Shown: positions 15,574 through 56,909 of the stretch, one piece after another
Layout: each line of letters opens with the position of its first letter
Position numbering within the stretch: position 1 is the first letter of the stretch
Assembly (NCBI GenBank): GCA_029846755.1
Contig: JARWBI010000014.1
Location: forward strand, 1-57,573
DNA: 57,573 nt
Reading direction: 5' to 3'
Source: Falsirhodobacter flavus
GTDB taxonomy: Bacteria > Pseudomonadota > Alphaproteobacteria > Rhodobacterales > Rhodobacteraceae
The notes under the pieces: model-generated
Databases searched by the model: none
What the model saw: the letters and a program-made list of their open reading frames with translations, nothing else
What the model was told of the DNA's origin: nothing
Position numbers and translations under genes: made by a program

Positions 15574-15576
15574 GGA

Positions 15577-16698: not shown

Positions 16699-16729
16699 TT
16701 TTATCCTGCTTCGTTTGGCCTGGCCAGGC

Positions 16730-17812: not shown

Positions 17813-19236
17813 TTAGGCACCTTGGATAGAGAACGGCGGTAAGTAGGTTGTTTTATGTCTTTTGATACGAAATCTGTCCCACGATTAATCTTCGATTCAA
17901 CCGTCACTACAAATTTCGTTTGGCGTTCTGGAGAAGGTGACCGTCCATGATCGAAGCGAGAATAGTTATAAGCAACCCTGCTTCTATCGGGCTTCACAGA
18001 TGACGTCGTAGATGACATGGCACAATTTGCAAGCGCTGCACCAAGTCCCATATAGAATGAGAAGAGGGGCTGAAGCTTCCCAAAATAGGCTACTGTTGCA
18101 CCGCCAATCAAAAGAGCGAGCATCGTCAGTCCCCAACCAGTCTTTAAGTTCTCGTATAAGACTTCACCGTTACTGCGGCGCGATAGAGCTACCCAGATAA
18201 GTAAAATAGAAGCAAAAATAAAGATGAGAGACGGAATGCCAGATCTCATTGAAATCAGAAGCCAATAGTTATCGACGCTTGCGCCAAGCCAATAAGGGCG
18301 AGTCCATTGAGACGGATCAAACCCGAATATTGGGTTTGCCATCACGTCATCTATTGCAAAATTCCAAATGTTGCGTCGCGCATAAGCGGTACTCGGCTTA
18401 AGCGTAATAGTCGCTATCAGGCCAACGATGCCACGGTTGCTTGCGAAGTTCATAAACAATGCGAGAGCTAAGACCATAAACCCAATAATCTGAAGTCTAT
18501 TCTTCAGAGGACGGGAAACTCTTTCAATAAGGAGTAACCATATCTGCATGATTAGCATCATTAACGGCGCTGAAGATGCTGATAAGAATGTAGCAAATCC
18601 TATAACCGGAATTTTCCATAGCAACTGAAGAGGAGAGGATATGAACCATATCAGACTTAGCAATGAAGCGCAGAACGCGCCGTAAAGAATAGGGTGCTCA
18701 AAGAATGATGCAGCTCGCAGAATTCCCATCCGAGTTTCATTACTAAAAAAATAGCTTATCCCAGTAAGAGACTTCGCGAAATCATGAATAAATCTCTCTT
18801 TAAGAAAAGCTTCTGGAATTGCAACCATCCCAGAGATAAAGGCCATTGCGAAAAGAAACAGTATGGTCGCCTTTATCTGTGAAATATTAACCAGATATAC
18901 GCGCGCCATCAGATAGACTATCAAAAACTCAAGTATATAAGTTCCACTTTGCTCGATTGATCGTGCTGGATCGTAGATCAGGGAAAATGCTATACATGAC
19001 CAGACCACATGCATAAGAAATAGCCAGTCATAAGCCTGCCAGCGCATCACCAAGGCGCGGGGCAAAACCATGAATGTTGTGACAATTAGGGATAGCTTTG
19101 ATAAAGTTATGAACAGCGGTCCGACATTGAAGCTGAGCTCGATCGGAACCAAGATGACCAAAACCAACAAAAGCTTAATAGCTATCGGGCATCTGTGACT
19201 GGAATTTACGCCTGAACTAGATAGAGAAATTGTCAA
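17809..19236 (-). CDS. O-antigen polymerase/ligase-like protein (Wzy candidate)
   Basis: A protein of about 475 residues with roughly 10-12 membrane helices and a large periplasmic loop. That is the architecture of Wzy polymerases and WaaL ligases, with the family-like AYARRNIWNFAIDDVMANPIFGF shortened here to ARRNIWNFAIDDV and NPIFGFDPSQW. These join repeat units in the periplasm. TTG 19236 is the probable start, with AGGAT upstream. The last 75 residues are hydrophilic and unusual. It heads the AT-rich operon and is the only Wzy-like gene in the window, so the plasmid's polymer may depend on this acquired polymerase. Confidence 0.75.
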   Translation of the reverse strand: MTISLSSSGVNSSHRCPIAIKLLLVLVILVPIELSFNVGPLFITLSKLSLIVTTFMVLPRALVMRWQAYDWLFLMHVVWSCIAFSLIYDPARSIEQSGTYILEFLIVYLMARVYLVNISQIKATILFLFAMAFISGMVAIPEAFLKERFIHDFAKSLTGISYFFSNETRMGILRAASFFEHPILYGAFCASLLSLIWFISSPLQLLWKIPVIGFATFLSASSAPLMMLIMQIWLLLIERVSRPLKNRLQIIGFMVLALALFMNFASNRGIVGLIATITLKPSTAYARRNIWNFAIDDVMANPIFGFDPSQWTRPYWLGASVDNYWLLISMRSGIPSLIFIFASILLIWVALSRRSNGEVLYENLKTGWGLTMLALLIGGATVAYFGKLQPLFSFYMGLGAALANCAMSSTTSSVKPDRSRVAYNYSRFDHGRSPSPERQTKFVVTVESKINRGTDFVSKDIKQPTYRRSLSKVPK

Positions 19237-19328
19237 CTCTGATAATCCTACCTTTGGAAGCTATCGCTCAGGCGATGCCTTGAACAGGTTTGGTCATTTA
19301 TACCTTGTTCATACCGTTCTGCCCACCC

Positions 19329-19430
19329 TTAGATGCTCGCGCCCGCGGTCCCATAGGCTACATTATGGTTTCCAGAAGATGAAAATGTTTGCGGCTTACC
19401 AGCATAGGTTGTAGCCTCTGCCTGTCCTAC
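19329..19430 (-). pseudogene. Possible 3' fragment of a lost gene
   Basis: On the minus strand this stretch reads about 30 codons ending in TAA, with the plausible protein tail YAGKPQTFSSSGNHNVAYG then TAGASI. No start or upstream gene fits. It lies just beyond the edge of the AT-rich insert and could be the tail of a gene cut by that acquisition. I do not recognise the family. Confidence 0.2.
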
Positions 19431-19520
19431 TACGTGGTACGTAAGTAGGCGCTTTTCTGAAGTTTTTGCGACAAACACGATGCCCAGTCGCGGGCACTCA
19501 TTCAGAAGTGAGGACACGAA

Positions 19521-20009
19521 ATGATTAGAGCTCTTGCTTGTGCTGCGGCTCTCGCTGCCGCGCCGCTTGCTGTATCCGCTGCTACCGTCAACCCTGGCGA
19601 TGTGGGCAGCGAAACCAAACTGCTGCTGCCGGGCGTCACCGCGTTCGAATTCACCCCGACCGCCGAGACGAACTTCTCGTTCACCATCACCGCCAGCGGG
19701 CTTACCTCGGACCTGTCCAAGGTTTCGTTCGGCTACTCCTCCACCGCGGGTGAATACACGTTCGATCAGATCCTGCCGATCGCGCCGGGCCTGAGCTTCG
19801 GCGTCAGCATGCTGGAAGGGCTGACTGCCGACGCGCCCTTCACGCTGTATTTCTTTGCCAACGGCACGCTGGCTGCGCCGGTCGTGACGGTTGCCTATTC
19901 CACCGACGAAGCAATCCCGGCGCCGATCCCGGTTCCGGCTGCGGGCGGAATGCTGATGCTGGCTCTGGCCGGTCTTGGCGGTGCCGCCGCCGTGCGTCGC
20001 CGCAAGTAA
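19521..20009 (+). CDS. VPLPA-CTERM-type sorting-domain protein (putative XrtD substrate)
   Basis: A 162-residue secreted protein. Residues 1-21 are a Sec signal peptide (MIRALACAAALAAAPLAVSA). The central part is a small beta-rich domain of unknown function. The C-terminus has the tripartite exosortase signal: PVPAAGG, a hydrophobic helix (MLMLALAGLGG) and RRRK. The motif is PIPVPAAGG, a variant of the canonical VPLPAAG seen at 32395-32961. GTGAGGACACG lies before ATG 19521. The gene stands alone and is followed by a strong hairpin terminator. It is likely cut by the exosortase at 30327-31913 and delivered to the surface or matrix. Confidence 0.85.
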   Translation: MIRALACAAALAAAPLAVSAATVNPGDVGSETKLLLPGVTAFEFTPTAETNFSFTITASGLTSDLSKVSFGYSSTAGEYTFDQILPIAPGLSFGVSMLEGLTADAPFTLYFFANGTLAAPVVTVAYSTDEAIPAPIPVPAAGGMLMLALAGLGGAAAVRRRK

Positions 20010-40490: not shown

Positions 40491-41549
40491 GTGAGTGCGC
40501 TTGTAGCCATGTATGTTCCGCTTGATATTTCTGGCGCCGTCGATGCCAATTCGGCAACGGAAAACAATCCAAAGTTTCACCTCAATAATAAAATCAACCA
40601 AAGCGATAGTCGCACTATTTCCGTGACCGTCGTTTTCGCCACGCATAACGGGGGATGGAAACTCCGCCGGATGCTGGAGGCGTTGACAGCCTCGACCCTG
40701 AACCGCAAGTTTTGGAAAATCGTCGCGGTCGACAACAACAGCACCGACGACACCCCCGCCATCCTGCGCGAATACCAGTCCCGCCTGCCGCTGGAGGTCC
40801 TGTCGGAGCCGCGCCCGGGCAAGGGCCACGCCCTGAACACCGCCTTCCGCCACATCGAGGGCGATCTGGTCGTCATCACCGATGACGATGTCATCCCCGA
40901 ACCCGACTGGCTGGAGCAATATCTGAAGCTGGCCGAGCAAAATCCCGATTACGACATGTTCAGCGGCCTGATCGAGCCGGAATGGGAAAAGCAGCCCGAA
41001 AGCTGGATTCTGGACTGGGTCGATCTTGCCCCGATCTATGCGCTGAACGGCAACATGGCGCCCGGGCCCATCTCGGCGCGGCATATCTTCGGGCCGAATT
41101 CGGCCTTCCGCACGCGCATCCTGCCCGCGACCTATACGGTCGAAACGCTGGATGTCGGGCCGGACGCAAAACGCCGTCAATACGCGATGGGCGGCGATAC
41201 GGCTTTTGCGATGAACCTTGAAACGCAGGGACACAAGGCGCTCCATTCCCGCGCGCCTGCCGTAAGGCACATCATTCCCAAGGCCTATGTCGACAAAGGC
41301 TGGATCCTGAAAAGGGCAGAGCGTTTCGGGAAAGGCGCGGTCCATTTCTATCCCCGCCGATATGCGTCGAAACCGCAAATCCTCGGGATTCCGGCATCTC
41401 TCATCCTGCGCCTGTCCGCATCTTTCATCGCCGCGTCCGGCGCATCCATATTGCCCAAAAGCCGAAAGGCATGGGACATCCTGTGGACCTACCGGATGCG
41501 AAAAGGTGCGGTCGAGGAGCTTTATCGAAAGGCGCGGGCTGTCCGGTAA
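40491..41549 (+). CDS. Glycosyltransferase family 2
   Basis: A 352-residue GT2. After a 40-residue N-terminal stretch come VTVVFATHNGGWKLRRMLEA, VDNNSTDDTP, GKGHALNTAF and the metal-binding TDDDVIPE. The middle includes FGPNSAFRTRIL and MGGDTAFAMNLE. The start is uncertain: GTG 40491 or ATG 40509. Neither has a strong ribosome site. It converges on the GT2 of the NOS operon with only seven bases between the stops. Donor unknown. Confidence 0.85.
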   Translation: MSALVAMYVPLDISGAVDANSATENNPKFHLNNKINQSDSRTISVTVVFATHNGGWKLRRMLEALTASTLNRKFWKIVAVDNNSTDDTPAILREYQSRLPLEVLSEPRPGKGHALNTAFRHIEGDLVVITDDDVIPEPDWLEQYLKLAEQNPDYDMFSGLIEPEWEKQPESWILDWVDLAPIYALNGNMAPGPISARHIFGPNSAFRTRILPATYTVETLDVGPDAKRRQYAMGGDTAFAMNLETQGHKALHSRAPAVRHIIPKAYVDKGWILKRAERFGKGAVHFYPRRYASKPQILGIPASLILRLSASFIAASGASILPKSRKAWDILWTYRMRKGAVEELYRKARAVR

Positions 41550-41556
41550 AGCGGTA

Positions 41557-42381
41557 TCAGCGGAAAGATCTGTCCGTAAACCAGCCTTGCTGTGCCCGCC
41601 GGCTCAGCGGTTCGGCCAAGAGACGCACCAGCACGAAAGCCGCCGCGCCCCAGACCGAACGGGGCGAGGCGAGCATCGCCAGAAGGCGCGCTTTTTGCCC
41701 GCCCTGACGCGGAACGGCTAACCCCATCCTCGCAAGCTCGCGCTCCCCCCTACGCCAGCGGCTCCGAACGCGAACCCATCCGAAGAACGTCCGGGGTATC
41801 GCGGTCTCGATGCTTGTCTCGTGAACGATGCGGCGGCGATTGGCGGGGGTCTTGGCCTCCATGAAGATATCGTCACCCAGGATATCGGGGAACGATTGCC
41901 AGCGTGACCGCCCCGTGCGGCTCAACCCGACAAGATGGTGAAAGGCGGCCTCTTGCGCATGGGGAAGGGCAAGCCAGACCCGCGCGATCGCTTGGGAACA
42001 CCCCGTGGCCCGCGCCATGTCGAAACGGATGCGCGGCGCCACAAGATCCGCATCGCCCAGCGCCGCCGCCAGAACCTCGAAACAGCCGGCAGGCACGCGC
42101 ACATCCGCATCGAGGTAGAACCGGGGAAAAACCGAACAAAGCCCATCGCCAAGATTGAGCGCCGCCGTCTTGGACGCCGCCGCCACCTCCTCCACCCGCG
42201 CGACCCTGCCGCGGCCAGCCAATGCCGTACGCAGGATCTCCGCGCTCGCATCGCGGCAGCCATTGCATATGAAGACAAGCTCCGCATCGCCATCCGCCGC
42301 ATCCAGAAGCGAAGGCAGCGTCTGCGGCAGAACCCCGGCTTCGTTATGCACGGGCACGACGATGCTGTAAGGCGCTACCAT
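41557..42381 (-). CDS. Glycosyltransferase family 2, last gene of the NOS operon
   Basis: A 274-residue GT2 that starts at ATG 42381, seven bases inside the end of the nitric oxide synthase gene. Motifs are YSIVVPVHNEAGVLPQTLPS, the DADVRVP metal site, DILGDDIFMEA and a basic C-terminal half (WVRVRSRWRRGERELARMG). The overlap with NOS means the two are translated together. A glycosyltransferase coupled to NOS suggests that the product of the operon is a glycosylated small molecule or a modified sugar, but that is inference. Confidence 0.85.
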   Translation of the reverse strand: MVAPYSIVVPVHNEAGVLPQTLPSLLDAADGDAELVFICNGCRDASAEILRTALAGRGRVARVEEVAAASKTAALNLGDGLCSVFPRFYLDADVRVPAGCFEVLAAALGDADLVAPRIRFDMARATGCSQAIARVWLALPHAQEAAFHHLVGLSRTGRSRWQSFPDILGDDIFMEAKTPANRRRIVHETSIETAIPRTFFGWVRVRSRWRRGERELARMGLAVPRQGGQKARLLAMLASPRSVWGAAAFVLVRLLAEPLSRRAQQGWFTDRSFR

Positions 42382-43661
42382 GCCATGCGTTTCCACAGCT
42401 TCCAGCGGCGCTGGATGCGGTCCAGTCCCGATTGCACCCTGTTCTGCTGCTGGTCGCCATAGAAGGGCATCAACTGCCGCCCATCCGACGCGCGCGCGGT
42501 ATAATAGTTCGGAACGGGGTGGAAATTCCGCATCCGAAGGTGGAACACGTCGCAGACCCCCGATGCCTGAGGCGGGACGATCCAGCGCCAATCGGCAGCG
42601 ACGCGGCGGCCTTGGGCCTGCTCTCGTTGATGGAAATCCATGAACTGATCGCTGGCGGCGTGGTGGTCGACCATGGTGACCCCCGCAGCCTTGAACGAAT
42701 GCATGACCGCGCGGTTCAGCTCCGTCAGGGCGGTGTCCTTCCAGAACGGCGTCCCCGAGGCCTGCGGGTCCAGCGCCAGCGCCCTTGCCACATCGGGCAG
42801 CAGGTCATACCGCTTGCGATCCGCGAAATTGCGCGATCCAATTTCTGTGCACATATAGAATCCATTAAAGGGCGCGCAGGGGTAATCGATGCCGCCGATC
42901 GTCAGGATCATCCCGCTGACACAAGGCACCGAATACCAGCGCAGCCCCATGGCGGTGATCGCGTCTGCGGTCGGATGCACGATTTCAACCTCGCGCAGCG
43001 CATCCTTGGGAACGGCATGGATCGAACGGCGGTCGTTCCGGTCGCGAATGACATAGGGCAGGATGTCGAAACGGCCCGGCTCCCCCTCGGGCTGCCAGCC
43101 AAGCGAACGGGCGATGCGCGTCGCCTCGACATTCTGCCGGTCGCCAATCACGCTGCCATCTTCCATCAGATGGCCGGCATATTGCGTGGTCTGCGCGCTT
43201 TCGATGTAGGACGGCAGCCCATCCGGCGCGACCGGAGCAAAGACCGAGATGAGCGAGCGGATACGCCCATCCCCCAGGGCACCGCGCATGTGGCGCGTCA
43301 CCTGCGCCGCCATCGCCTCGGGGTCGGTCAGGTGGCGGCAGTCGAAAACCTCCAGGCTTTCCCAGAACAGCCGCCCGATGCAGCGACCGTGATTGCGCCA
43401 CGCCAAACGCGCCCCGAAGGCAAGCTCCTCGGGGGTGTGCACATATGTTCCCCGGCGGCGCAAATCGCGGCCCACTTCGGCCTTTCGCGCCCGAAGAGAT
43501 TTTTCCGGCAGCCGCGCCTCGCGATAAAAGGTATCCAGAAACGCATATGCTTCCTCGCGCCTTTCAGCAGCCGAGATCGTGCGCAACCGGCGGGCAAGGG
43601 GACTGGCCCCGCCGGTATAGTTCATGCGGGCCCCGATAATCCGACGTTTCAGAAAATTCAT
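42375..43661 (-). CDS. nos: Nitric oxide synthase oxygenase domain protein
   Basis: A 428-residue bacterial NOS oxygenase, which turns arginine into citrulline and nitric oxide using haem and a pterin or folate. The haem-thiolate Cys94 lies in LAWRNHGRCIGRLFW. Glu273 in CTEIGSRNF is the arginine-binding residue. VDHHAASDQFMDF, and Trp358 and Trp360 in ADWRWIVPP, complete the pterin site. Known NOS has PFNGWYMGTEIG; here it reads PFNGFYMCTEIG. The N-terminus aligns with the Bacillus type over RRGTYVHTPEELAFG. No reductase domain is attached, so a host reductase must provide electrons. The gene starts at ATG 43661, sharing one base with the stop of the radical SAM gene, and overlaps the GT2 start. 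Confidence 0.93.
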   Translation of the reverse strand: MNFLKRRIIGARMNYTGGASPLARRLRTISAAERREEAYAFLDTFYREARLPEKSLRARKAEVGRDLRRRGTYVHTPEELAFGARLAWRNHGRCIGRLFWESLEVFDCRHLTDPEAMAAQVTRHMRGALGDGRIRSLISVFAPVAPDGLPSYIESAQTTQYAGHLMEDGSVIGDRQNVEATRIARSLGWQPEGEPGRFDILPYVIRDRNDRRSIHAVPKDALREVEIVHPTADAITAMGLRWYSVPCVSGMILTIGGIDYPCAPFNGFYMCTEIGSRNFADRKRYDLLPDVARALALDPQASGTPFWKDTALTELNRAVMHSFKAAGVTMVDHHAASDQFMDFHQREQAQGRRVAADWRWIVPPQASGVCDVFHLRMRNFHPVPNYYTARASDGRQLMPFYGDQQQNRVQSGLDRIQRRWKLWKRMAW

Positions 43662-45226
43662 CACATCAGTCCGTCAAACTGCCGCGCGCCCATCCGAAGC
43701 GGACGGCGGTTGATCTCATAGACGGACCGCAGCGCACGGGCCTTGGCCCGGCGATAGGCGATGTTTCCACCCTCGCGGTTGATGTATTCGGCGCGCCCCT
43801 TGCGGTGCCTAAGCTGGCGGATCGAAAACGGCCCATCGCCGGAATGCTGCACGATCTCGTCATAGATGGGGGTGTCTTCCAGCAGTGAGAACTCGTTGAA
43901 CCGCACCCGGTCCAGATAGGGTGCATGCGCCTCCAGGAATTCGGCGGTCTGCACCATGTCTTCCGTCGTCTCGCCCGGAAAGCCCTTGAACATCGTGCAG
44001 CGCACGCTCAGACCGGCCTCATGCGCATGGCGGATGAACTCGGAATTGCGCTCGACCGACGATCCCTTGCGCATCAGGTCCAAAAGTCGCTGGCTGCCGG
44101 TTTCCAACCCGAAACTGATCCGGCGCATCCCGCCCGCAACGGCGGCCCGCAGATCGGCGCGCGACAGGCCGTTATCCTTGCGCGTATCGACATGGACGCT
44201 GCCGATCCATTCCGCGCCCTGAACATAGCTTTGCACTCGTTCCGCAATGCCGCGGATCATGTCGGGATAGGAGTTCAATTTGAGGTCGAGAAACAGGAAG
44301 CTGGTCGTATCGTGCCGCCGCGACTGTTCCTGCATTTCCAGCAGCACACTGTCGATGGACCGCGTGCGAAAGGTCCGACCGCTGACCGAAACGACATCGC
44401 TGCAGAAAAGGCATTTGTCCCATTGGCAGCCGCGGCCGGTCATCATCGGTACGATCCGCACCGGATACCTGTCCCACGGGAAATCCGTAAAATCGGGGAC
44501 CGGGCTGCGGTCCAGCTGGCGCAGCGGGGGCGCCTTGCGCGAGGATCGGCCATCGGGCAGCACGACCCCCGCAAAGTTCAAAAGGTCGCGCCCCTCGCAA
44601 ACCGCATCGACCATCGCGCTGATGTCATGTTCAGCCTCGGCCCCCACCACGGCGACAATGCCCGGAATCGCCCTCCACGCCTCCGCCACCCCCGAGACAT
44701 TGAACATCGGCCCGCCCAAAAGCACTGGAACGCCCGCCGCTTGCGCCATTAGGCCGATTTCGCGCACAGATTCGAAATGCTGCAAATAAGCCGAAAGGAG
44801 GATGATATCCCCACCCTCGGCAATCGCACGGCCAACCTCGCGCAGAACGGTCGGATGCGGTTTTTCATTCCAGTTGGTCCGCAGATCGCGCAGCGAATCC
44901 CGTAGAACCCGAAAGCCCGGCGCAGTGGAAAGATGGATGCGGCGCTTCACGTGATCCAGGGTCGTTTCTGCCCATTCTCGTTCCCGAGCAGGCACGTCAT
45001 GCGACAGCGGGCAGATGACCCGAACCTGATGCCCATCATTCCGCAACGCCGAAACAAGGATGCCGATGGCCAAAGTCGGAAAGGTCGAGAAGTTATTCAG
45101 ATCGACCATCAAGACGCGCCGTTTGCTCGCCAAAACATTCGAAACCGCCGGATCGTCTTCAATATCAACAGCACGCGCCGCCCGCACAGATCGAGGGGCG
45201 CGGGGTGCCCTGAGGTTACTGGTCAT
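43661..45226 (-). CDS. Cobalamin-binding radical SAM protein
   Basis: A 521-residue protein. Residues about 35-200 form a B12-binding Rossmann-like domain (VLMVDLNNFSTFPTLAIGIL, then VLLGGPMFN). The radical SAM barrel starts near 240, with the iron-sulfur cluster motif GRGCQWDKCLFC (C-x4-C-x2-C) and the later RRISFGLETGSQRLL and FKGFPGETTEDM. Such enzymes methylate or rearrange unreactive carbons. ATG 45226 is the likely start; the upstream frame lacks a ribosome site. It is the first gene of a three-gene operon with NOS and a GT2. The substrate is unknown. Confidence 0.9.
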   Translation of the reverse strand: MTSNLRAPRAPRSVRAARAVDIEDDPAVSNVLASKRRVLMVDLNNFSTFPTLAIGILVSALRNDGHQVRVICPLSHDVPAREREWAETTLDHVKRRIHLSTAPGFRVLRDSLRDLRTNWNEKPHPTVLREVGRAIAEGGDIILLSAYLQHFESVREIGLMAQAAGVPVLLGGPMFNVSGVAEAWRAIPGIVAVVGAEAEHDISAMVDAVCEGRDLLNFAGVVLPDGRSSRKAPPLRQLDRSPVPDFTDFPWDRYPVRIVPMMTGRGCQWDKCLFCSDVVSVSGRTFRTRSIDSVLLEMQEQSRRHDTTSFLFLDLKLNSYPDMIRGIAERVQSYVQGAEWIGSVHVDTRKDNGLSRADLRAAVAGGMRRISFGLETGSQRLLDLMRKGSSVERNSEFIRHAHEAGLSVRCTMFKGFPGETTEDMVQTAEFLEAHAPYLDRVRFNEFSLLEDTPIYDEIVQHSGDGPFSIRQLRHRKGRAEYINREGGNIAYRRAKARALRSVYEINRRPLRMGARQFDGLM

Positions 45227-45595
45227 CTCAACATCCAAAATACATACACAACGGCAATGGTTAATCCTGCTGCATGGCAGCAAGTCATTTCCCTACGCCC
45301 AACCCGCAATTCCACAAGTGAAAAGTCAAGTGACGAAAGCAGGATGCACCAAGGTGCCGGACTTTGTCAGGTTGAAGATGCTGATAATTCCCGCACTGGT
45401 ATTTGAGTGACATTTACAACATTCAAATCAACTTCAGGTCTAAACCCAAGTAATTTCACCACTCACCAAAAGGAACAGGTTACATAATCATGACTACGTT
45501 TCAAAGCGAGATACTTGGGGGACGTGCTATTTCTGAATGCGACTTGGGCCATGAAAGGATCATGGAATGAAGGTTTGGTTTTCTCACCCTACCCT
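45227..45595. other. Promoter region of the NOS operon and edge of the IS graveyard
   Basis: About 370 bases without a convincing gene. The part next to 45226 must hold the promoter of the radical SAM-NOS operon. AT-rich sequence at 45400-45500 marks the boundary with degraded insertion sequences. No clear operator was found. Confidence 0.35.
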
Positions 45596-47799: not shown

Positions 47800-49119
47800 T
47801 CACTTCTCGCGGAAGGCCCGGTTCAGCTGGGCCGTCAGCGGGTGCAGCAGATAGCTGAGCGCGGAACGATCGCCCGTTTCAAGGAAGGCTTCCACCGGCA
47901 TGCCGGGCAGGAATTCCACCTCGCCCAGACGCGCGATCTCCTCGGGGGTGATCGACAGCTCCAGCCGATAGAAGCTCTGCCCCGTTGCCTGATCCACCAC
48001 CGAGGTGGGCGAGATCGCGGTCACATGCCCGTCCACGCGCGGCGTCGTGCGCGGATCGAAGGAGGGGAACACCACCTGCGCCTTCTGCCCCACATGCACC
48101 TGGTCGATGTAGCGTGGTTCCAGCTTCAGCTCGAACTCCACGCCCTCGTCGGATGGGATCACCTGCATGATCGTCCCGCCGGGCGACACGACGCCGCCCA
48201 CGGTCGTCACCTGCATCTCGTGCACGATGCCGGAGGCAGGAGCGCGGATGTCGATGCGGCCAAGCTGCTTGGTGGTGGTCACGATCTCCAGCACCAGCTC
48301 CTCGGCCTCGCGGGTGGCGGTGCCCAGATCGGTCACGACCTTTTCCTTGAACTGGCGTTCGGCCTGCACGACCTCCAACTCGGCATCGCGGATGGCGTTC
48401 TCGATGCGGGCGATCTCGGCGCGGTTCTCGGCAATCTCGCCCATCAGGCCGGCGCGGGCGCGTTGCAGCTCCAGCATCTGGCTTTCGCGGGTCAGACCTT
48501 CGGCGAACAGCTTCTGGATATTGCCAAGCTCGCGCTCCAGCAGGCCAAGCTGTTCCTCTTGTGCGGCGATCATGCCTTCGACGCCGGCGATCTGGTGGCG
48601 GAACTGCTGCACCTTTTCGCCCAGCTGTTCGCGCTGGCCGGTCAGAAGCGCGTGGCGGGCCTGAAAGATCTGGCGCTGCACGGCTTCGGGAACCGCCGTA
48701 TCGGGCTTTTCGAACGGCAGCGCGGGCCAGCTGAAGCCTTCGTTGTCGAATTGCGGCACCGGCTCGTCCAGCTGTTCGGCGGTCAGGCGGGCCTTCAGGG
48801 CCAGCGACTCGGCCAGACGAGTGCGGGCGATATCGAGGTTCACCTGAAGCAGCGTCGGGTCCAGCCGCATCAGCAGATCGCCTTCGGTCACGAAATCGCC
48901 GTTCGCCACGTCGATCCGTTCCACGATGCCGCCGTCGAGGCTCTGCACCATCTTGGGCTTGCCGCGCACCACTGCCTGACCGGGCGAGATCACCGCCCCG
49001 CCGATCAGCGTGAACTGTGCCCATGCCACCAGCAGCGCCAGCAGCACCGCACTGCCGACCCCGCCCAGAAGGCCGGTCATCTTCAGCCCCGTGCGAAGCT
49101 GGGGAACGGTCGCGGTCAT
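47800..49119 (-). CDS. HlyD-family type I secretion adaptor (PrsE-like)
   Basis: A 439-residue periplasmic adaptor. One membrane helix lies near residues 14-38. A biotinyl-lipoyl-like half (VVRGKPKMVQSLDGGIVERI) is followed by a long coiled coil of about 200 residues (LAESLALKARLTAEQ through VVQAERQFKEKV). The second lipoyl half (RIDIRAPASGIVHEMQV) and a beta-barrel domain (EFELKLEPRYIDQVHVGQKA) end the protein. It bridges the ABC transporter to an outer-membrane TolC protein, which is not in the window. Its start overlaps the ABC gene's stop (ATGA). PrsDE systems in rhizobia export EPS-modifying enzymes, a good model for this pair. Confidence 0.92.
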   Translation of the reverse strand: MTATVPQLRTGLKMTGLLGGVGSAVLLALLVAWAQFTLIGGAVISPGQAVVRGKPKMVQSLDGGIVERIDVANGDFVTEGDLLMRLDPTLLQVNLDIARTRLAESLALKARLTAEQLDEPVPQFDNEGFSWPALPFEKPDTAVPEAVQRQIFQARHALLTGQREQLGEKVQQFRHQIAGVEGMIAAQEEQLGLLERELGNIQKLFAEGLTRESQMLELQRARAGLMGEIAENRAEIARIENAIRDAELEVVQAERQFKEKVVTDLGTATREAEELVLEIVTTTKQLGRIDIRAPASGIVHEMQVTTVGGVVSPGGTIMQVIPSDEGVEFELKLEPRYIDQVHVGQKAQVVFPSFDPRTTPRVDGHVTAISPTSVVDQATGQSFYRLELSITPEEIARLGEVEFLPGMPVEAFLETGDRSALSYLLHPLTAQLNRAFREK

Positions 49120-50915
49120 GCCTTGTCCTCGTTGCTGGCGCGCAGGCGCACGGGTTCGTTTGCAGGGGGGGCCGTCGTGGCCGGGGCTGTGGGAACGGGC
49201 CGGGGCGGCATGGCGGCGCGCAGGACTTCTTCCTTGTCGCCAAATTTCAGGACCATACCGTTCTGAAGCACCAGGATCTTGTTCACCGCCGCCAGCGCGC
49301 TGGGCCGGTGGGCCATGACGATCACGGTGGACCCGCGTTCGCGCATGGCGCGGATGGTCTGGGCCAGCGCCTGCTCGCCCCCGGCATCGAGGTTCGAGTT
49401 CGGCTCGTCCAGCACGATGATCTTGGGATCGCCATAGACGGCGCGCACAAGGCCCAGCCGCTGTATCTGCCCGCCCGACAAGGGCTGCTCGCCCGCGCCG
49501 ATCCGGGTCTCGTATCCCATGGGCAGGCCAAGGATCATGTCATGCACGCCCGAGATCTTCGCCGCCTCGATCATCTTGGCATCCGAGGCTTCGGGATCGA
49601 AGCGGGTGATGTTGTCGCGGATCGTGCCGGGCAGCATCTCGACCGCCTGCGGCAAATATCCGATCGACCGGCCCAGCGCCTCGGGCGCCCATTGGTCGGG
49701 GGTCGCGCCGTCCAGGCGGATCTCGCCGCCATCGGGGGCCCATGCGCCGACCAGCAGCCGCGCCAGCGTCGATTTTCCCGCCGCGCTGTTGCCGATCACG
49801 CCCAGACCGTCGCCGGGGGACAGCTCGAACCCGACCTGATGCAGCATCCGGGCCCGGTCCGACCCCGGCGCCGCGTTCGGCGAAAGCTTGGTCAGCCCCC
49901 GCACGGAAATCCGGCCGGTGGGCGCGGGCAGATCGACAGGGGCGCGGGGGGTCGCCGCGCTGTCGAAAAACCCGCTCAGGCGGCGATGCGCCACCCCTGC
50001 CCGGCCGATTGCGCGCCATTGGCCGATCACCTGATCGACCGGCGCCAATGCCCGACCCGAAAGGATCGAGGTCGCAATGATCATCCCTGCCGTGATCTCG
50101 TGCCGCAGCACCAGAAACGCGCCCAGCGTCAGCATCGCCGACTGCAGAAGCATCCGGAAGGATTTGGAGAAAGCCGAGGTCACCTCGTTCACGTCGCTGC
50201 CGCGTTGTCCGGCGGCCAGCGCGTCCTCGTGCATGCCCTGCCAGCGGGTGGCGACGCGGCCTTCCATGCCCAGCGCCTGCACCGTTTCGGCACTGCGCAG
50301 GCTCTGGTCGGCAAAGGCGCGGGCGGTGGCATCCATCGCCATCGAACGCCCGAGCCCGCCCTGCGTCATCAGCCGGTTCACCCACGCCGCGATCGCCACG
50401 ACCGCCGCGCCGCCGACGGTCAGCCAGCCAAGCCACGGGTGGATCAGGAACAGCACCGCCAGATAGATCGGGATCCACGGCAGGTCGAACAGCCCGTGAA
50501 TGGCCGGGCCGGACATGAAGCCGCGCATGATCTCCAGATCGCGCAGGGGCAGCGCATTCTCGCCCTTCTGCCCGGACCGGAGCCATTGGCGAAACGCGAC
50601 GGGGCCAAGCGCATTGTCCAGCCGCACCGCCGCCCGCGCAAGGATGCGCGCCCGCAGGAAGTCATAAAAGCCAAGGAATGCGTAAAGCAGGATGACGATC
50701 AGGAACAGGCCCTGAAGCGTCGGCACCGATCCCGAAGGCAGCACCCGGTCATAGACCTGCAGCATATAGATCGAGCCTGTCAGCATCAGCACGTTGATGA
50801 TCGCGCTGAGCGCGCCCGCACCCAGGAACAGTCCCCGCAGCGCACGCAGCGCCTGGCGATAGGAATTGCCATGCCGGGCAGAGGGCGCTGCCGCCCCGCT
50901 TTTCTTTCCGTTCAT
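49116..50915 (-). CDS. Type I secretion ABC transporter, permease and ATPase (PrsD-like)
   Basis: A protein of about 600 residues. The N-terminal half has the six-helix exporter domain, starting ALRGLFLGAGALSAIINVLM. The ATPase half contains Walker A GNSAAGKST, the signature LSGGQIQRLGLVRA, Walker B IIVLDEPNSNLD and the His switch MAHRP. There is no N-terminal peptidase domain, as in PrtD/PrsD-type exporters. ATG 50915 has GGGA six bases upstream; ATG 50948 is a possible alternative. It forms an operon with the HlyD adaptor. The beta-helix/LamG protein at 105-2345 is a likely cargo. Confidence 0.93.
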   Translation of the reverse strand: MNGKKSGAAAPSARHGNSYRQALRALRGLFLGAGALSAIINVLMLTGSIYMLQVYDRVLPSGSVPTLQGLFLIVILLYAFLGFYDFLRARILARAAVRLDNALGPVAFRQWLRSGQKGENALPLRDLEIMRGFMSGPAIHGLFDLPWIPIYLAVLFLIHPWLGWLTVGGAAVVAIAAWVNRLMTQGGLGRSMAMDATARAFADQSLRSAETVQALGMEGRVATRWQGMHEDALAAGQRGSDVNEVTSAFSKSFRMLLQSAMLTLGAFLVLRHEITAGMIIATSILSGRALAPVDQVIGQWRAIGRAGVAHRRLSGFFDSAATPRAPVDLPAPTGRISVRGLTKLSPNAAPGSDRARMLHQVGFELSPGDGLGVIGNSAAGKSTLARLLVGAWAPDGGEIRLDGATPDQWAPEALGRSIGYLPQAVEMLPGTIRDNITRFDPEASDAKMIEAAKISGVHDMILGLPMGYETRIGAGEQPLSGGQIQRLGLVRAVYGDPKIIVLDEPNSNLDAGGEQALAQTIRAMRERGSTVIVMAHRPSALAAVNKILVLQNGMVLKFGDKEEVLRAAMPPRPVPTAPATTAPPANEPVRLRASNEDKA

Positions 50916-50994
50916 TGAAGATCCCATTCGCATCTTGCCGAAGTTCATTCCGGCGGCCTTGTCCCATTCCGCGCTTGGACGCCACGGTAGGATC

Positions 50995-52221: not shown

Positions 52222-53145
52222 ATGGACCGCATAGAATGGATAGATGTCGCCAAGGGCGTCTCGATCGTTCTGGTCGTCTTCTATCACGCGCTGATGTTCG
52301 CCGAATTGCAGGGGATCCCCGTCTCGGGCCTCTATGCCGAACTGAACGCGCCGCTGCGTTATATCCGGATGCCGCTGTTCTTCACGGTCTCGGCGCTGCT
52401 GCTTGGGTCCGCGTCGGGGATGTCGTTTCCGGCCTTCGTGACGAAATGGATCCTGCCCAGCCTTTGGGTGCTTGCGGTCTGGAACCTCGTCTATGCTGCC
52501 ATCGGCGATGCCGATTTCGGTTTTGACGAGTTGGTCACCCCCTATGGCCATCTGTGGTTCCTGTGCGCGCTGATCCTGTTTCGGCTGGCATGGCTGGGCC
52601 TTGACCGGATGCGCCTGCCCGCGCTGGCCGGGGCTGCGGGCCTGTCCTTCTGGATGCTGTGGGAGCCGATCGCCGGGATGAACCTGCTGGCCCGGAATGT
52701 GCTGGCCTATCTGTTCTTCTTCCTTGCCGCCGCCTGGTATGGCCGCCCCATCGCCGCATGGATCACGCGGAACCAGTGGACCGCCTTCATCCTTGGCGCG
52801 CTGGCAACGGCAATCTCGTGGAAATTGACCTTCCGCTTCGGTGTCTCGGTCGCGGGGGTCGGAATGCTCTGGGCGGCGTCTTCGCTGATTGCGCGGATGC
52901 GTCTGCCCTGCGACGCGCTGCGCTGGCTGGGCCGCCATTCGCTGGAAGTGTTCCTGATCCATTATGCGCTGCTTCTGCCGCTGGTGCTGGCGGCAGCGCA
53001 TCTGCCCGGCGCGGCATGGCTTCTACCGCCCACCGTGACGGCGGCGGCGATCCTGATCCCCATCGGCTTGCGCCGCCTGACCGATCCGGTTGCACCTTGG
53101 CTTTATCGCGTGCCCAAGCTGGAGCGGCGACGCCTAGCGGCGTAA
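52222..53145 (+). CDS. Acyltransferase family 3 (OafA/GumF-like)
   Basis: A 307-residue membrane acyltransferase. ATG 52222 has AAAGGATCGC upstream. The family start is clear: RIEWIDVAKGVSIVLVVFYH with the conserved His, then RMPLFFTVSALLLG, HLWFLCALILFRLAW, and GRHSLEVFLIHY near the end. It would acylate the polysaccharide in the periplasm and is the third such gene on the plasmid. Its stop overlaps the convergent parB stop by 12 bases. Confidence 0.88.
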   Translation: MDRIEWIDVAKGVSIVLVVFYHALMFAELQGIPVSGLYAELNAPLRYIRMPLFFTVSALLLGSASGMSFPAFVTKWILPSLWVLAVWNLVYAAIGDADFGFDELVTPYGHLWFLCALILFRLAWLGLDRMRLPALAGAAGLSFWMLWEPIAGMNLLARNVLAYLFFFLAAAWYGRPIAAWITRNQWTAFILGALATAISWKLTFRFGVSVAGVGMLWAASSLIARMRLPCDALRWLGRHSLEVFLIHYALLLPLVLAAAHLPGAAWLLPPTVTAAAILIPIGLRRLTDPVAPWLYRVPKLERRRLAA

Positions 53146-54096
53146 CCACTCCTCCAGTCGCGCGCGGAAGGCGGCATCAACACCAGGGCCGTCCAAGCGC
53201 AGCGCGGCGGGTTTGCCGGTCAGACGGATGCCGGGGGCGATCTCGGCTGCTTTAGGCTTTTCGGCTTTCGGCGGGGCGATCAGGCGGGTCAGAACGGCAG
53301 CCTCCGCCTCGGCCGTGTCCTGCCCCAAGGCGGCGGCAGCGCGGGCGGCAAAGCCCGGCTCCTCCTCCAGCCGTTTGACCAGCGACAGGCCCAGCCGTTC
53401 CGGAATCGCCGCCGGGAACCGCAGCGCTTCGCCAAGCCCGCGATGCAGCGTGACGAAGGATCCAATCTTGGACCGCTTCGCTCGGCTGGCATTGGCATAG
53501 AGCCGTTGCAGCGCCTCGCGCTCCGATCCGAAGACCCCCGCCTCCACCGCCTTGGCCGCGATCCGGGCGCGTTCGTAATAGGACAGGCCCGCGCGGATTT
53601 CGTTCTCCTCGACCATCGCGACATAGGCATCGGCGGCGGCGGCAGGTTTGCGCAGCATCGCCAGCACGCGGGGAAAACTGCCCGTCTCCTGCTGCAACGC
53701 CTTCAGCGCCGCCAGGCGCCGCCAGCCGGAGATGAGGCCGAAGCGCCCCTGCCCCAGATCCGTCACCTCGATCGGGATGCGCTGGCCATTCGCGCGGATG
53801 CTCTCGATCAGGCCCGACATCTCCTCGGGGTCGGCGGCGATCCGGTCGCGGACCAGATGGTCGACCTCCACCGCCTCCAGCGGCAAGGCCTGCACGAAGC
53901 GCCCCTCGGCGCGGGCGCGGGAAATTTCGGCCGCCATTTCCTGAAGCGCGGCAATCTCGGCGGATTCGGCCGCGACCGAGGCGATGGGTGCGGGCCTCGA
54001 TTGAACAGGCCGGCCGAAGGGCATGGCCTTCGTCTCCAGCGGGGCATCGGGGGCCGCATCCTCGAACGGCCCGGCAAGGCGTCTGCGTTTTGCCAT
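53134..54096 (-). CDS. parB: Plasmid partition protein ParB
   Basis: A 320-residue ParB/Spo0J-family protein. The ParB nuclease-like domain contains DRIAADPEEMSGLIESIRANGQRIPIEV (shortened: GLIESIRANGQRIPIEV) and GLISGWRRLAALKAL; a helix-turn-helix-like region follows (SKIGSFVTLHRGLGEALRF). The start at ATG 54096 shares one base with the parA stop. It should bind the three GTTTCGCGCGCGAAAC sites nearby and, with ParA, spread plasmid copies to daughter cells. Confidence 0.92.
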   Translation of the reverse strand: MAKRRRLAGPFEDAAPDAPLETKAMPFGRPVQSRPAPIASVAAESAEIAALQEMAAEISRARAEGRFVQALPLEAVEVDHLVRDRIAADPEEMSGLIESIRANGQRIPIEVTDLGQGRFGLISGWRRLAALKALQQETGSFPRVLAMLRKPAAAADAYVAMVEENEIRAGLSYYERARIAAKAVEAGVFGSEREALQRLYANASRAKRSKIGSFVTLHRGLGEALRFPAAIPERLGLSLVKRLEEEPGFAARAAAALGQDTAEAEAAVLTRLIAPPKAEKPKAAEIAPGIRLTGKPAALRLDGPGVDAAFRARLEEWLRR

Positions 54097-55505
54097 CACA
54101 TCTCCTCCCGTTTCGCGCGCGAAACATCCAGCTCGTCCCGCCGCCAGATCCCGACCAGCAGGCGCTTGAACGCGGCATAGGTGGCGTCGAACGTCTCGCG
54201 CCCGCGGATATAGGTGTCGCGGTTGAAGTCGCGGTAATCGGCCTCGTAGATGCCGGCCACCTGCTCGCCCGCCTGCCCGATCAGCGCCGTGAAGCCCTGG
54301 CGCGAGGGCGACAGCGTGCGCCCCAGATAGGCCTGCATCAGCCCCGCCAGTTCCGCCTGCTGGCTGCCGTCGAACCGCGTGACGACTGCCCGCACCGCAT
54401 CCCATTCGAAGGACAGCTCCTCGCGGCCAAGGGCGCGGGCGGCGATGTTCTCGCCCTCCTCGATGGAACTGAACGTCGAATGTAGCATATCGAAGAACCG
54501 GCCCGTGCTGTCGAACTCCAGAAAGGATGCGCCCAGCGGCACCAGCAGGATATCCGCCGCCGCCAGCCCGTTGATCGTCAGATAGCCAAGCGCCGGGGGC
54601 GTATCGAGGAAGACGATGTCGTATTCGTCCAAGACCCCATCCTCGGCCAGCACATCGGTCAGCGCATCCCACAGCTTCCAGCCGCGCGCAGCCATGCGCC
54701 AGACGGGGATCTGGAACTCCGCCCAGTAGAGGTTCAACTGCGCACCGATCAGGTCGATATTCGGCCAGTGGGTCTTCTTGACCAGATCCTGCGCCCGGAC
54801 CTTCAGCGCGTCCGAAAGCGTGTCGTCGATCGGGATCGGCGCCTCGCCCCGCTCGATCCGGCCCTGGTTCGTCGCCCGCAGATGCCGCGCGTAATGGCGG
54901 GCCAGAAGCGGAAAGGACGTCTCCCATTCATCCGCGACCTTGCCGCCGAAGATGGATGTCATCGACCCCTGGCTGTCCAGATCGATCACCAGCACGCGAT
55001 ACCCGTCCAGCGCCGCCGACATGGCCAGATGCGCCGCAGTGGATGTCTTGCCCACCCCGCCCTTGAAGTTGGCGACAGCGACGATCTTGGCCGGGACATC
55101 CTTGGGACGGTAGGGTTTGTATTCCTTCGCCTTGGACCCTTCGGCAGCGAAATGGGCGCGCAGGCGCAAGACCTCGTCCAGCGTGAACCACTTGGCCCCG
55201 CCCTCGGTCTCGGACGCGCCTTGGGGCAGCGCGGGGTTGTCGCGCAGCACGCGGCGGAAATGGGCGGCGGCGACCGGGATCAGATAGCGGGTGATTTCCC
55301 ATGTCGAGAACAGACGCAGGGTCTTCCGCCCCTCGGCATTCAGCCCCCGCCCGACCAGATCGTCCCGCCCCTTGGCGCAGGCTTCGGCGATGCGGGCAAA
55401 GCCCTCTGTCGTCGTCGCCTCGCCCAATTCGGCCAGCGCGGCATCAGGCGAGATGTTGAAATAGGGAGGAAGCGGCGCTTCGTCCTCCTTGACCTTCCTG
55501 ACCAT
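54096..55505 (-). CDS. parA: Plasmid partition ATPase ParA
   Basis: A 469-residue ParA of the long plasmid type, with an N-terminal DNA-binding extension of about 110 residues. The deviant Walker A is NFKGGVGKTSTAAHLA and Walker B is YDIVFLDTPPALGYLT. ATG 55505 has GGGGCAG upstream. The 3' end contains a parS-like palindrome (54110-54125) that codes for the VSRAKR part of the C-terminus, so the centromere sits inside the gene. It is divergent from repA across the origin region. Confidence 0.93.
   Translation of the reverse strand: MVRKVKEDEAPLPPYFNISPDAALAELGEATTTEGFARIAEACAKGRDDLVGRGLNAEGRKTLRLFSTWEITRYLIPVAAAHFRRVLRDNPALPQGASETEGGAKWFTLDEVLRLRAHFAAEGSKAKEYKPYRPKDVPAKIVAVANFKGGVGKTSTAAHLAMSAALDGYRVLVIDLDSQGSMTSIFGGKVADEWETSFPLLARHYARHLRATNQGRIERGEAPIPIDDTLSDALKVRAQDLVKKTHWPNIDLIGAQLNLYWAEFQIPVWRMAARGWKLWDALTDVLAEDGVLDEYDIVFLDTPPALGYLTINGLAAADILLVPLGASFLEFDSTGRFFDMLHSTFSSIEEGENIAARALGREELSFEWDAVRAVVTRFDGSQQAELAGLMQAYLGRTLSPSRQGFTALIGQAGEQVAGIYEADYRDFNRDTYIRGRETFDATYAAFKRLLVGIWRRDELDVSRAKREEM
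54110..54125. promoter_or_regulatory. parS-like centromere site 2, inside parA
   Basis: GTTTCGCGCGCGAAAC lies 14 bases upstream of the parB start and within the last codons of parA. ParB binding here could also repress its own operon. Confidence 0.85.
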
Positions 55506-55600
55506 AAAACTGCCCCATATGCCGTCTTTTGGACAAAGTAACATGATTCGCAGCATATGGAATGAAAATCGGCATCAACAGTGATTTTCCCAAGCAATTC

Positions 55601-55699
55601 CGGCATTTCCCTTGGTGCGCCCGATGCTTTTCCGAAAAAATCTCTGTTATATTCCGGTTATTAAGTAGTTACGCCCCTGCACTACCCTTGGAAATGCCG
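55601..55699. promoter_or_regulatory. Inverted repeat flanking the AT-rich part of the origin region
   Basis: CGGCATTTCC at 55601-55610 and GGAAATGCCG at 55690-55699 are exact reverse complements. The sequence between them is AT-rich and includes TATATT at 55648-55653. It probably holds promoters for repA or parA, or a melting region for the origin. Confidence 0.6.
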
Positions 55700-55736
55700 T
55701 GTCTACAAGGGGTTGAGACGATCCTAACAGCCTCAG

Positions 55737-55802
55737 GCGATTCCGGAACCACGTTTGTGCGACTCCGGAACCACGTCCGGGCGAATCCGATCCCACGTTT
55801 CC
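55737..55802. promoter_or_regulatory. Origin iterons: three tandem 22-bp repeats
   Basis: Three adjacent units of exactly 22 bases start with GCGA and share the core TCCGGAACCACGT (third copy TCCGATCCCACGT): 55737-55758, 55759-55780 and 55781-55802. They lie just upstream of repA and are the expected RepA binding sites of the replication origin and the basis of copy-number and incompatibility control. Confidence 0.92.
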
Positions 55803-55819
55803 GGTGCTGGACAGCGGCC

Positions 55820-55828
55820 TGTGGATAA
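55820..55828 (-). promoter_or_regulatory. DnaA box
   Basis: TGTGGATAA is the reverse complement of the consensus DnaA box TTATCCACA. It lies 17 bases after the last iteron, consistent with a host-DnaA-assisted plasmid origin. Confidence 0.85.
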
Positions 55829-55895
55829 CCTTAGGGTGGGCGTCAACGAAACCACGATAAGAGCCTGCCCCAAGGCAGGCCGTCCGAGGGCAGAC

Positions 55896-56909
55896 ATGGC
55901 AGGACTTTCCCGGCAGATCCGGGCGCGCGGAGAGCCTCCGCCGCCGGTCGCCCATGCAGACTTCTTCGTCTGCGATATCTTCGATGCCCTGCCCAAGGAC
56001 GATCTGGGCAGCATGGAACATCCGATGTTCTCGCTGTCCACCCGGCCCGATACGCGCATCCTGACCTATCTGCACAACGGGGCCGAGATCACGGTCACGC
56101 CTTCGGTGAAGGGCCTCGCCACGATCCATGACAAGGACATCCTGATCTTCTGCATCAGCCAGCTGATGGCGGCGATCAACATGGGCCGTCCCGTTTCGCG
56201 CGAGCTGCATCTGAAGGCGGCGGACCTGATGGCCGCCACCCATCGCGAGGCCTCGGGCGACGGCTATGCCCGCCTGCGCGAGGCGTTCGAGCGGCTGGCC
56301 GGCACCCGTATCACCACCAATATCGTGACCGGCGATATCGAGACCACCACCGGCTTCGGAATGATCGAGGGCTGGCAGATCGTGCGCCACACCCGCGGCG
56401 GGCGGATGGTCAGCGTGCGTGTGACGCTGTCGGACTGGCTGTTCCGGGCGGTCACCTCGCGTTCGGTCCTGACGCTGTCGCGCGACTATTTCCGTCTGCG
56501 CAAACCGCTGGAGCGCCGGGTCTATGAACTGGCGCGCAAGCATTGCGGACGGCAGCCCGACTGGCGTGTTTCGGTCGAAACCCTGCAGAAGAAATCCGGC
56601 AGCGCCTCGCCCCGCCGCGTGTTCCGCAAGATGATCCGCGACATGATCGCCGCAGACCCCCTGCCCGATTACCAGATGGAGGAGGAGCCGGGCGATCTGA
56701 TCCGCGTCTTCCCCCGCCGGCTGGTGCTCGATGCCGGAGAAGGCCCGCTGCTGACCCCCGAGGTGCTGGACGCCGCCCGCGCCCTTGCCCCCGGCTGGGA
56801 CGTCCACGCGCTGGAGGCCGATTGGCGCAGCTTCTGGGCGGCTTCCGGGCGCCCTCGCCTGCGGTCGGTGGAAAAGGCTTTCCTTGGATATGTCCGCAGC
56901 CGGATCTGA
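55896..56909 (+). CDS. repA: Plasmid replication initiator RepA (RPA family)
   Basis: A protein of about 337 residues of the RPA/RepA initiator family found on many roseobacter plasmids. Conserved stretches include FFVCDIFDALPKDDLGSMEH, then PMFSLSTRPDTRIL, TPSVKGLATIHDKDILIFC, ISQLMAAINMG, LSRDYFRLRKPLERRVYELA and WRSFWAASGRP. The frame is open further upstream, but that part would be encoded by the iterons, so ATG 55896 is the more likely start; GTG 55836 is another option. It binds the adjacent iterons and starts replication. Confidence 0.92.
   Translation: MAGLSRQIRARGEPPPPVAHADFFVCDIFDALPKDDLGSMEHPMFSLSTRPDTRILTYLHNGAEITVTPSVKGLATIHDKDILIFCISQLMAAINMGRPVSRELHLKAADLMAATHREASGDGYARLREAFERLAGTRITTNIVTGDIETTTGFGMIEGWQIVRHTRGGRMVSVRVTLSDWLFRAVTSRSVLTLSRDYFRLRKPLERRVYELARKHCGRQPDWRVSVETLQKKSGSASPRRVFRKMIRDMIAADPLPDYQMEEEPGDLIRVFPRRLVLDAGEGPLLTPEVLDAARALAPGWDVHALEADWRSFWAASGRPRLRSVEKAFLGYVRSRI

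Follow-up and report, generated by a model that had tools for sequence, protein, structure and literature searches.

A nitric oxide synthase gene paired with a radical SAM gene in Falsirhodobacter flavus and in scattered other bacteria

The window analysed here is a stretch of 57,573 nucleotides from Falsirhodobacter flavus (contig JARWBI010000014.1). Its minus strand carries an operon of three genes, which encode a radical S-adenosylmethionine (SAM) enzyme, the oxygenase of a nitric oxide synthase (NOS) and a family 2 glycosyltransferase (GT2). The original prediction, made from the letters of this DNA, described three coupled minus-strand genes, and all three open reading frames (ORFs) were found at the coordinates and on the strand that it gave. 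The overlaps that it described are also present: the radical SAM stop codon (43663-43661) and the ATG start of the NOS gene share one base, and the seven-base overlap of the NOS and GT2 genes is exact, with the GT2 ATG at 42381. Use of the GTG start of NOS at 43664 gives a four-base overlap with the radical SAM gene, for which alternative starts lie at 45238 (ATG) and 45283 (TTG). The operon contains the following features, all on the minus strand.

43661..45226, minus: radical SAM enzyme with a B12-binding-type N-terminal domain, 521 amino acids (PF04055 and fold matches)
44402..44428, minus: iron-sulphur cysteine motif C267-X4-C272-X2-C275 of the radical SAM enzyme, present in 17/17 aligned homologues
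43661..43664, minus: stop/start overlap of the radical SAM and NOS genes, ATGTGATG (sequence)
42375..43664, minus: NOS oxygenase, 429 amino acids, without a reductase domain, start GTG 43664 or ATG 43661 (PF02898)
43380..43382, minus: codon of NOS Cys95, invariant in 16/16 NOS sequences of the clade described below and in 9/9 control NOS
42375..42381, minus: seven-base overlap of the NOS and GT2 genes (sequence)
41557..42381, minus: GT2, 274 amino acids, alternative ATG start 42396 (PF00535)

Conservation of the NOS/radical SAM pair

The NOS loci compared here were all found by searching with NOS, not with the radical SAM gene, in one peptide-pattern scan of genome contigs, in 72,556 plasmid records and in whole-genome searches (handles up to G1346). 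The contig scan returned 10 NOS loci of a clade that includes the window, the plasmid collection held 14 records with NOS, two of them in the clade, and the whole-genome searches added the clade loci G275, G916, G1059 and G1244. With the window, the clade comprises 17 of the 26 loci with NOS that were examined; L007 and G1213/L037 are one contig and count as a single locus. Gene presence was counted by tblastn, and cluster tallies from the ORF callers were not used as counts. At L008, L014 and L019 the first caller drew frames on the strand opposite the pair; a codon-based caller mended L008 and L014, and at L019 the gene beside NOS was still drawn running into NOS. In the window, later gene calling gave no gene at 15574-19601, though the ORF list has long minus-strand frames there.

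The original prediction had proposed a survey of the neighbours of NOS homologues, and for the radical SAM gene the outcome is clear. It lies immediately 5' of NOS, on the same strand, in 17/17 clade loci (17/26 NOS loci) and is absent from the other nine. The radical SAM proteins of this family share 56-71% identity, and the NOS start is able to overlap the radical SAM stop in 14 of the 17 loci, with short gaps in L006, L010 and L014. The nine remaining NOS loci, namely eight of the 12 other plasmid records (H5, H7, H8 and H12 were left out) and G360/L022, served as controls. No radical SAM relative at E<=1e-3 was found in any of the nine (0/9) within flanks of ~4 kb on each side for the plasmid records, and, for G360, of 1.2 kb on the upstream and 9 kb on the downstream side of the match.

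A 25-row NOS tree places the 16 clade sequences in one group, with support of 100/99, against the nine controls. The clade rows derive from 15 loci, two rows coming from L014, and the frameshifted L021 as well as L038 were left out. Pairwise distances of the NOS and radical SAM proteins are correlated, with a Mantel r of 0.91 over 15 of the 17 clade pairs and 0/9999 permutations as high. Among the plasmid records, 102 match the radical SAM protein, and the two with query coverage of at least 80% are the two clade-NOS records. At L014 (L014:5772-8283), a Limnohabitans metagenome-assembled genome (MAG), a second NOS containing a gap of N lies directly upstream of the full pair, and before it a frame resembles part of the radical SAM domain, without the cysteine motif.

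Besides F. flavus, the clade is carried by Rubellimicrobium arenae, Rubellimicrobium aerolatum, a Rhodobacter MAG, Methylorubrum suomiense, Jannaschia seosinensis, Jannaschia sp. W003 (on a 21 kb plasmid) and Novosphingobium sp. ES2-1 (on a conjugative plasmid), by a Granulosicoccaceae MAG (Gammaproteobacteria), by a betaproteobacterial MAG, Hydrogenophaga sp. A37 (Betaproteobacteria) and the Limnohabitans MAG, and by four further genomes; a further carrier is a MAG labelled Kiritimatiellae, the label being given as deposited. NOS is rare and patchily distributed: it occurs in 3/394 genomes of the family, 1/385 of a class sample and 3/398 of a phylum sample (own genome included), and within genera in 2/111 and 2/121 genomes of two NOS-holding genera and in 1/7 of the window's genus. 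Three clade loci are on plasmids (the window, L015 and L016), and at L020 the first gene called 5' of the pair, which is on the opposite strand, encodes a phage integrase. The NOS/radical SAM pair is a conserved, horizontally moving two-gene cassette, patchy in its distribution and partly borne on plasmids.

The two enzymes

The window NOS belongs to PF02898 (E 1.2e-128, 429.5 bits, cut-off 22.7) and is the sole NOS match in the F. flavus genome (4.02 Mb). Its closest solved structure is 2flq (E 4.3e-90), and it shares with this and other bacterial NOS of known structure homology over residues 38-389, including the haem-, arginine- and pterin-site residues. Cys95, Q158, Y244, Y270, E274 and R285 are invariant across the clade rows, and C95, E274 and W359/W361 are kept in 16/16 clade sequences. 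We take Cys95 to be the haem ligand expected from characterised NOS, E274 to be the arginine-binding glutamate and W359/W361 to be the pterin-site tryptophans. In contrast to the NOS of known structure, the clade carries F or H at position 269 and Q at position 366, besides its operon partner. Position 269 is W in 7/9 controls and position 366 is usually L, I, V or M in the controls, with L033 being a control that likewise carries F and Q. In addition, R at position 161 is replaced by Q in 10/16 clade sequences. Position 249, the gate position, is Val in all 16, as it is in NO-releasing mammalian enzymes. The enzyme is predicted to oxidise arginine, by way of N-hydroxyarginine, to citrulline and nitric oxide (NO).

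The partner was originally described as a cobalamin-binding radical SAM protein. The radical SAM assignment stands, as the protein matches PF04055 with an E of 1.1e-15 and 58.6 bits (cut-off 29.5); cobalamin binding is supported by the fold only. The B12-binding domain PF02310 scores 27.4 bits, under its cut-off of 32.1. For the predicted structure (model pLDDT, a per-residue confidence score, 80.1), the best folds among the matches listed are TsrM, OxsB, CysS, MgmA and AprD4, at 14-20% identity. Of these, OxsB and TsrM are cobalamin enzymes, but AprD4 keeps the B12 fold without cobalamin. Against these proteins the window enzyme stands apart as a NOS-linked subfamily of its own, marked by the conserved C-terminus F[DN]G[LI]M. 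The cluster motif has the spacing CX4CX2C rather than the usual CX3CX2C, and OxsB aligns with the same spacing. The 17 aligned homologues are 16 clade loci, including the window, and the solo homologue L026, with L038 left out. Retention of the terminal Met only through the gene overlap was considered and dropped. The protein of L026 ends in LM or IM too, as do those of L006, L010 and L014, loci in which the two genes do not overlap, so the constraint on this residue appears to act at the protein level.

The top NCBIfam relative of the radical SAM protein is TIGR03975, at 105.2 bits, well short of the cut-off of 281.85. Weak kinship extends to other models of C-methyltransferases acting on proteins or on ribosomally synthesised and post-translationally modified peptides (RiPPs), all under their cut-offs. 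Viral contigs held no relatives (0), and phage records gave only two records of phage SF3, at ~28% identity over half of the protein.

Glycosyltransferases, other neighbours and the plasmid

The window GT2 matches PF00535 with 39.2 bits (cut-off 23.3); its predicted structure was poor (pLDDT 48.1) and was not used. A panel of glycosyltransferases, drawn partly from these same loci so that other families could be missed, finds a member within 2.2 kb of the pair in 14/17 clade loci and in 0/9 control loci. Beyond 2.2 kb, in the flanks available, only the window has another panel match; some flanks are short (294 bases upstream in L009, 767 downstream in L011). GT2 occurs in 10 clade loci and family 4 glycosyltransferase (GT4) alone in four (L011, L012, L013 and L015), that of L011 being assigned by similarity as its Pfam match is under the cut-off. 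The window's own GT2 family is found in 5/17 loci (the window, L006, L008, L009 and L014), and other GT2 types in five. Its relatives beside the pair in L006, L009 and L014 share 30-45% identity, and that of L008 shares 51-53% in two pieces in different frames. For the GT2, the survey suggested along with the original prediction has a weaker outcome: a glycosyltransferase of some family is near the pair in 14/17 loci, but one of the window's family in only five. The glycosyltransferase is a frequent accessory rather than part of the core, because the families differ among the 14 loci.

Several other genes accompany the pair. At L007 an Acyl_transf_3/SGNH acyltransferase takes the place of the glycosyltransferase. 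A region of ~145 residues, membrane-like by its sequence, lies 3' of NOS in four loci; the L005 and L006 copies were run against Pfam and gave no match, and three of the four copies contain a CHHGVRT motif. On the Jannaschia plasmid of 21 kb (L015:5795-15352), the pair is preceded by genes for a Crp/Fnr regulator, a 211-residue protein, a nitroreductase-family protein and a GT4, and NOS is followed by two genes with no assigned function. RTX calcium-binding repeat proteins are near or adjoin the pair in L007, L008 and L019, and a type I secretion pair (47800-50948) is near the window pair. At L026 (L026:2096-5481) the solo radical SAM gene is divergent from a GNAT acyltransferase gene, which a second acyltransferase gene adjoins, an arrangement that to us resembles ornithine-lipid genes (olsBA). 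The features surrounding the operon, and the small membrane-like protein of other loci, are listed here.

40491..41549, plus: convergent GT2 gene adjoining the operon (PF00535, 83.6 bits)
47800..50948, minus: HlyD-type type I secretion adaptor and PrtD-type ABC ATPase, the next large upstream genes (TIGR01843 and TIGR01842, above cut-off)
53134..56909: plasmid maintenance genes, namely ParB-like (minus; PF02195, under cut-off), ParA (minus; PF13614) and RPA replication initiator (plus; PF10134)
L005:11366-11899 (strand opposite to NOS), L006:11308-11748, L009:3173-3613 and L014 from 11368: membrane-like small protein 3' of NOS

The location on an exopolysaccharide plasmid, also part of the original prediction, holds up. 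The window is the whole contig C5 and begins and ends with the same 77 bases, a pattern of circular assemblies. Together with the RPA and ParA genes, an exosortase gene and the GT2 count (8/23 matches in the genome), these identical ends make it very likely that the window is a circular plasmid with many polysaccharide genes. The exosortase, an EpsH fused to DUF3485 (window:30291-31913), points to an exosortase-linked exopolysaccharide system.

Possible pathways and known systems

We tentatively favour, at somewhat short of even confidence, the reading that the coupled NOS and class B (B12-fold) radical SAM enzyme belong to one biosynthetic pathway, usually with a glycosyltransferase. It builds on the observed adjacency, catalytic residues, single NOS clade, correlated distances and patchy distribution. 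In such a pathway NOS would oxidise L-arginine, first to N-hydroxyarginine and from there to NO, and its radical SAM partner would generate a carbon radical on a partner substrate. Either NO or the N-oxidised nitrogen would enter the product or be acted on by it, and the glycosyltransferase would attach the product to a sugar or set it on an envelope polysaccharide. By analogy to the NOS/cytochrome P450 pairs of actinomycetes, the radical SAM enzyme would serve as the partner of NOS. A nitrated, nitrosated or N-N-bonded product, as originally proposed, is a guess compatible with the data. One specific version is doubtful: NOS would feed NO to its partner, and a carbon radical generated through 5'-deoxyadenosyl would combine with NO to form a C-N bond (C-nitroso, then oxime or nitro) on a sugar or small molecule, for transfer to a surface glycan by the glycosyltransferase. 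If true, C-H nitrosation would here proceed through a radical SAM enzyme, in contrast to the P450 route.

Several points weigh against a common pathway. NO is expected to damage [4Fe-4S] clusters and to bind cobalamin, and free NO beside a radical SAM enzyme is therefore a risk. The genes scanned include no dedicated NOS reductase. The limits of the clade were drawn after its neighbours had been seen, with the tree as an independent test, and the 26 NOS loci are a small sample with control flanks of ~4 kb, or only 1.2 kb upstream of the match in G360. Proteobacterial NOS also occurs without the radical SAM partner, on a Rhizobium rhizoryzae plasmid and in G360, which carries a different NOS in a long open frame. 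Among the 394 family genomes, NOS is found in three, the radical SAM family (E<=1e-30) in three and both in two. The radical SAM homologue of G087 (L026; 44-46% identity) belongs to a genome for which no NOS is reported in this sample; either its enzyme can work without NOS or this copy is a remnant. In G275 a frameshift interrupts the NOS gene (L021:9309-10602), beside an intact radical SAM neighbour. Finally, no panel glycosyltransferase is found at L007, L010 and L019, and the families elsewhere are several.

The cluster damage would be spared if NOS stopped at N-hydroxyarginine, or acted on an arginine-containing molecule first methylated or rearranged by the radical SAM enzyme. No free NO would then arise, and a single guanidine compound would be modified by the two enzymes in succession before its glycosylation. 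This course is possible, though rather unlikely. The nearest folds of the predicted structure would suit it, as they include the C-methyltransferases TsrM, CysS and MgmA and the rearranging B12 enzyme OxsB. The sub-cut-off kinship to RiPP/protein C-methyltransferase models and the clade marks F/H269, Q366 and R161Q (10/16) are also consistent with it, with the control L033 sharing F and Q. On the other side, the clade retains the residues expected to contact arginine and haem, and the gate residue Val249 is present in all 16 sequences.

The main functional rival, less likely than the cassette pathway and improbable in our view, is that NOS-made NO is a signal for exopolysaccharide or biofilm formation through NO sensors, with the radical SAM enzyme having a task of its own within that polysaccharide programme. 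In its favour are the many polysaccharide genes of the plasmid, the single H-NOX gene and the single FIST-domain gene that other contigs of the genome carry, and the position of some relatives near RTX-repeat proteins (L007, L008 and L019) or exopolysaccharide-like glycosyltransferases scoring under cut-offs. Against it, what never varies beside NOS in the 17/17 clade loci is a radical SAM gene, rather than a gene for a sensor or cyclase, and NOS and its partner co-evolve, as shown by their correlated distances. Some loci do not resemble polysaccharide clusters: L010 adjoins an M48 peptidase gene, and among 21 annotated features L016 has one GT2 and otherwise only a lipopolysaccharide-assembly protein related to polysaccharide. 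The scan of 20 window genes gave no NO-sensor domain. An NO-responsive promoter was tried as a candidate and rejected: the TTG-N8-CAA box, which we take to be FNR/NnrR-like, occurs upstream of the pair in 1/17 loci only, within 350 bases (288 were available in L009 and 339 in L038).

It is quite improbable that the cassette matures a ribosomal peptide, with the radical SAM enzyme C-methylating and NOS N-oxidising its residues. TIGR03975, the best NCBIfam relative, is a RiPP maturation C-methyltransferase, and two GT2 types weakly resemble MftF of mycofactocin (57 and 81 bits; cut-off 280); yet the TIGR03975 score is far under its cut-off. A precursor was sought among 996 small frames (20-160 residues) within 1.5 kb of the 17 pairs, and none recurred in more than three loci; the search reaches as far as the flanks, and a distant or very short precursor would escape it. 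The frames seen in three loci appear to be pieces or antisense of neighbouring GT2 and membrane-like genes, and the gap upstream of the pair is only ~150-215 bases in L005 and L008. A merely historical linkage of two unrelated genes travelling together by chance, which the NOS-free L026 homologue would allow, is scarcely credible given the strict order and strand, the frequent overlap and the correlated distances, maintained across NOS identities down to ~44% and three classes of Pseudomonadota.

Known NOS-dependent pathways offer two comparisons for the proposed NOS/radical SAM pathway. In actinomycete nitration pairs of NOS and P450 (TxtD/TxtE, RufN/RufO and the lajollamycin laj genes), a dedicated NOS has as its neighbour an oxidising enzyme that uses NO (PMC10831120). 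The likeness lies in this pairing of a NOS with an adjoining partner; the difference is that the window partner is a B12-fold radical SAM enzyme and not a P450. No P450 was found among the 20 genes scanned of at least 45 in the window, nor is one named in the annotated neighbourhoods of L015 and L016. The NOS tree was built without TxtD and RufN. By term search, "radical SAM" occurs 0 times in the text of this NOS-guided mining paper (PMC10831120). The 8-azaguanine cluster contains the NOS PtnF/8-AzgA together with a HemN-like radical SAM protein, 8-AzgG, and with GTP cyclohydrolase I (GCH I)-like and purine-related genes (PMC7674941). That cluster and the cassette both combine NOS with a radical SAM protein, but the radical SAM protein there is HemN-like, and GCH I-like or purine genes were not seen among the neighbours scanned here. 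Passages on NOS and radical SAM in a review of N-N bond formation describe no such pair (PMC11705231). A literature search, mostly without subscription papers and judged on titles, the opening of abstracts and selected passages, likewise found no description of a NOS whose partner is a B12-fold radical SAM enzyme. The recurrence of the pair in unrelated bacteria suggests a nitrogen-oxidising pathway that has yet to be described.

To our knowledge, few purposes are known for bacterial NOS beyond Bacillus-like organisms and the actinomycete clusters. A NOS clade with a dedicated radical SAM enzyme provides a clear genetic handle on what such a NOS is for. It also poses a chemical puzzle, as an NO-making enzyme is encoded beside one whose iron-sulphur cluster is sensitive to NO. 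The cassette would represent a new class of nitrogen-oxidising biosynthesis in Pseudomonadota if its product takes up NO or N-oxidised arginine.

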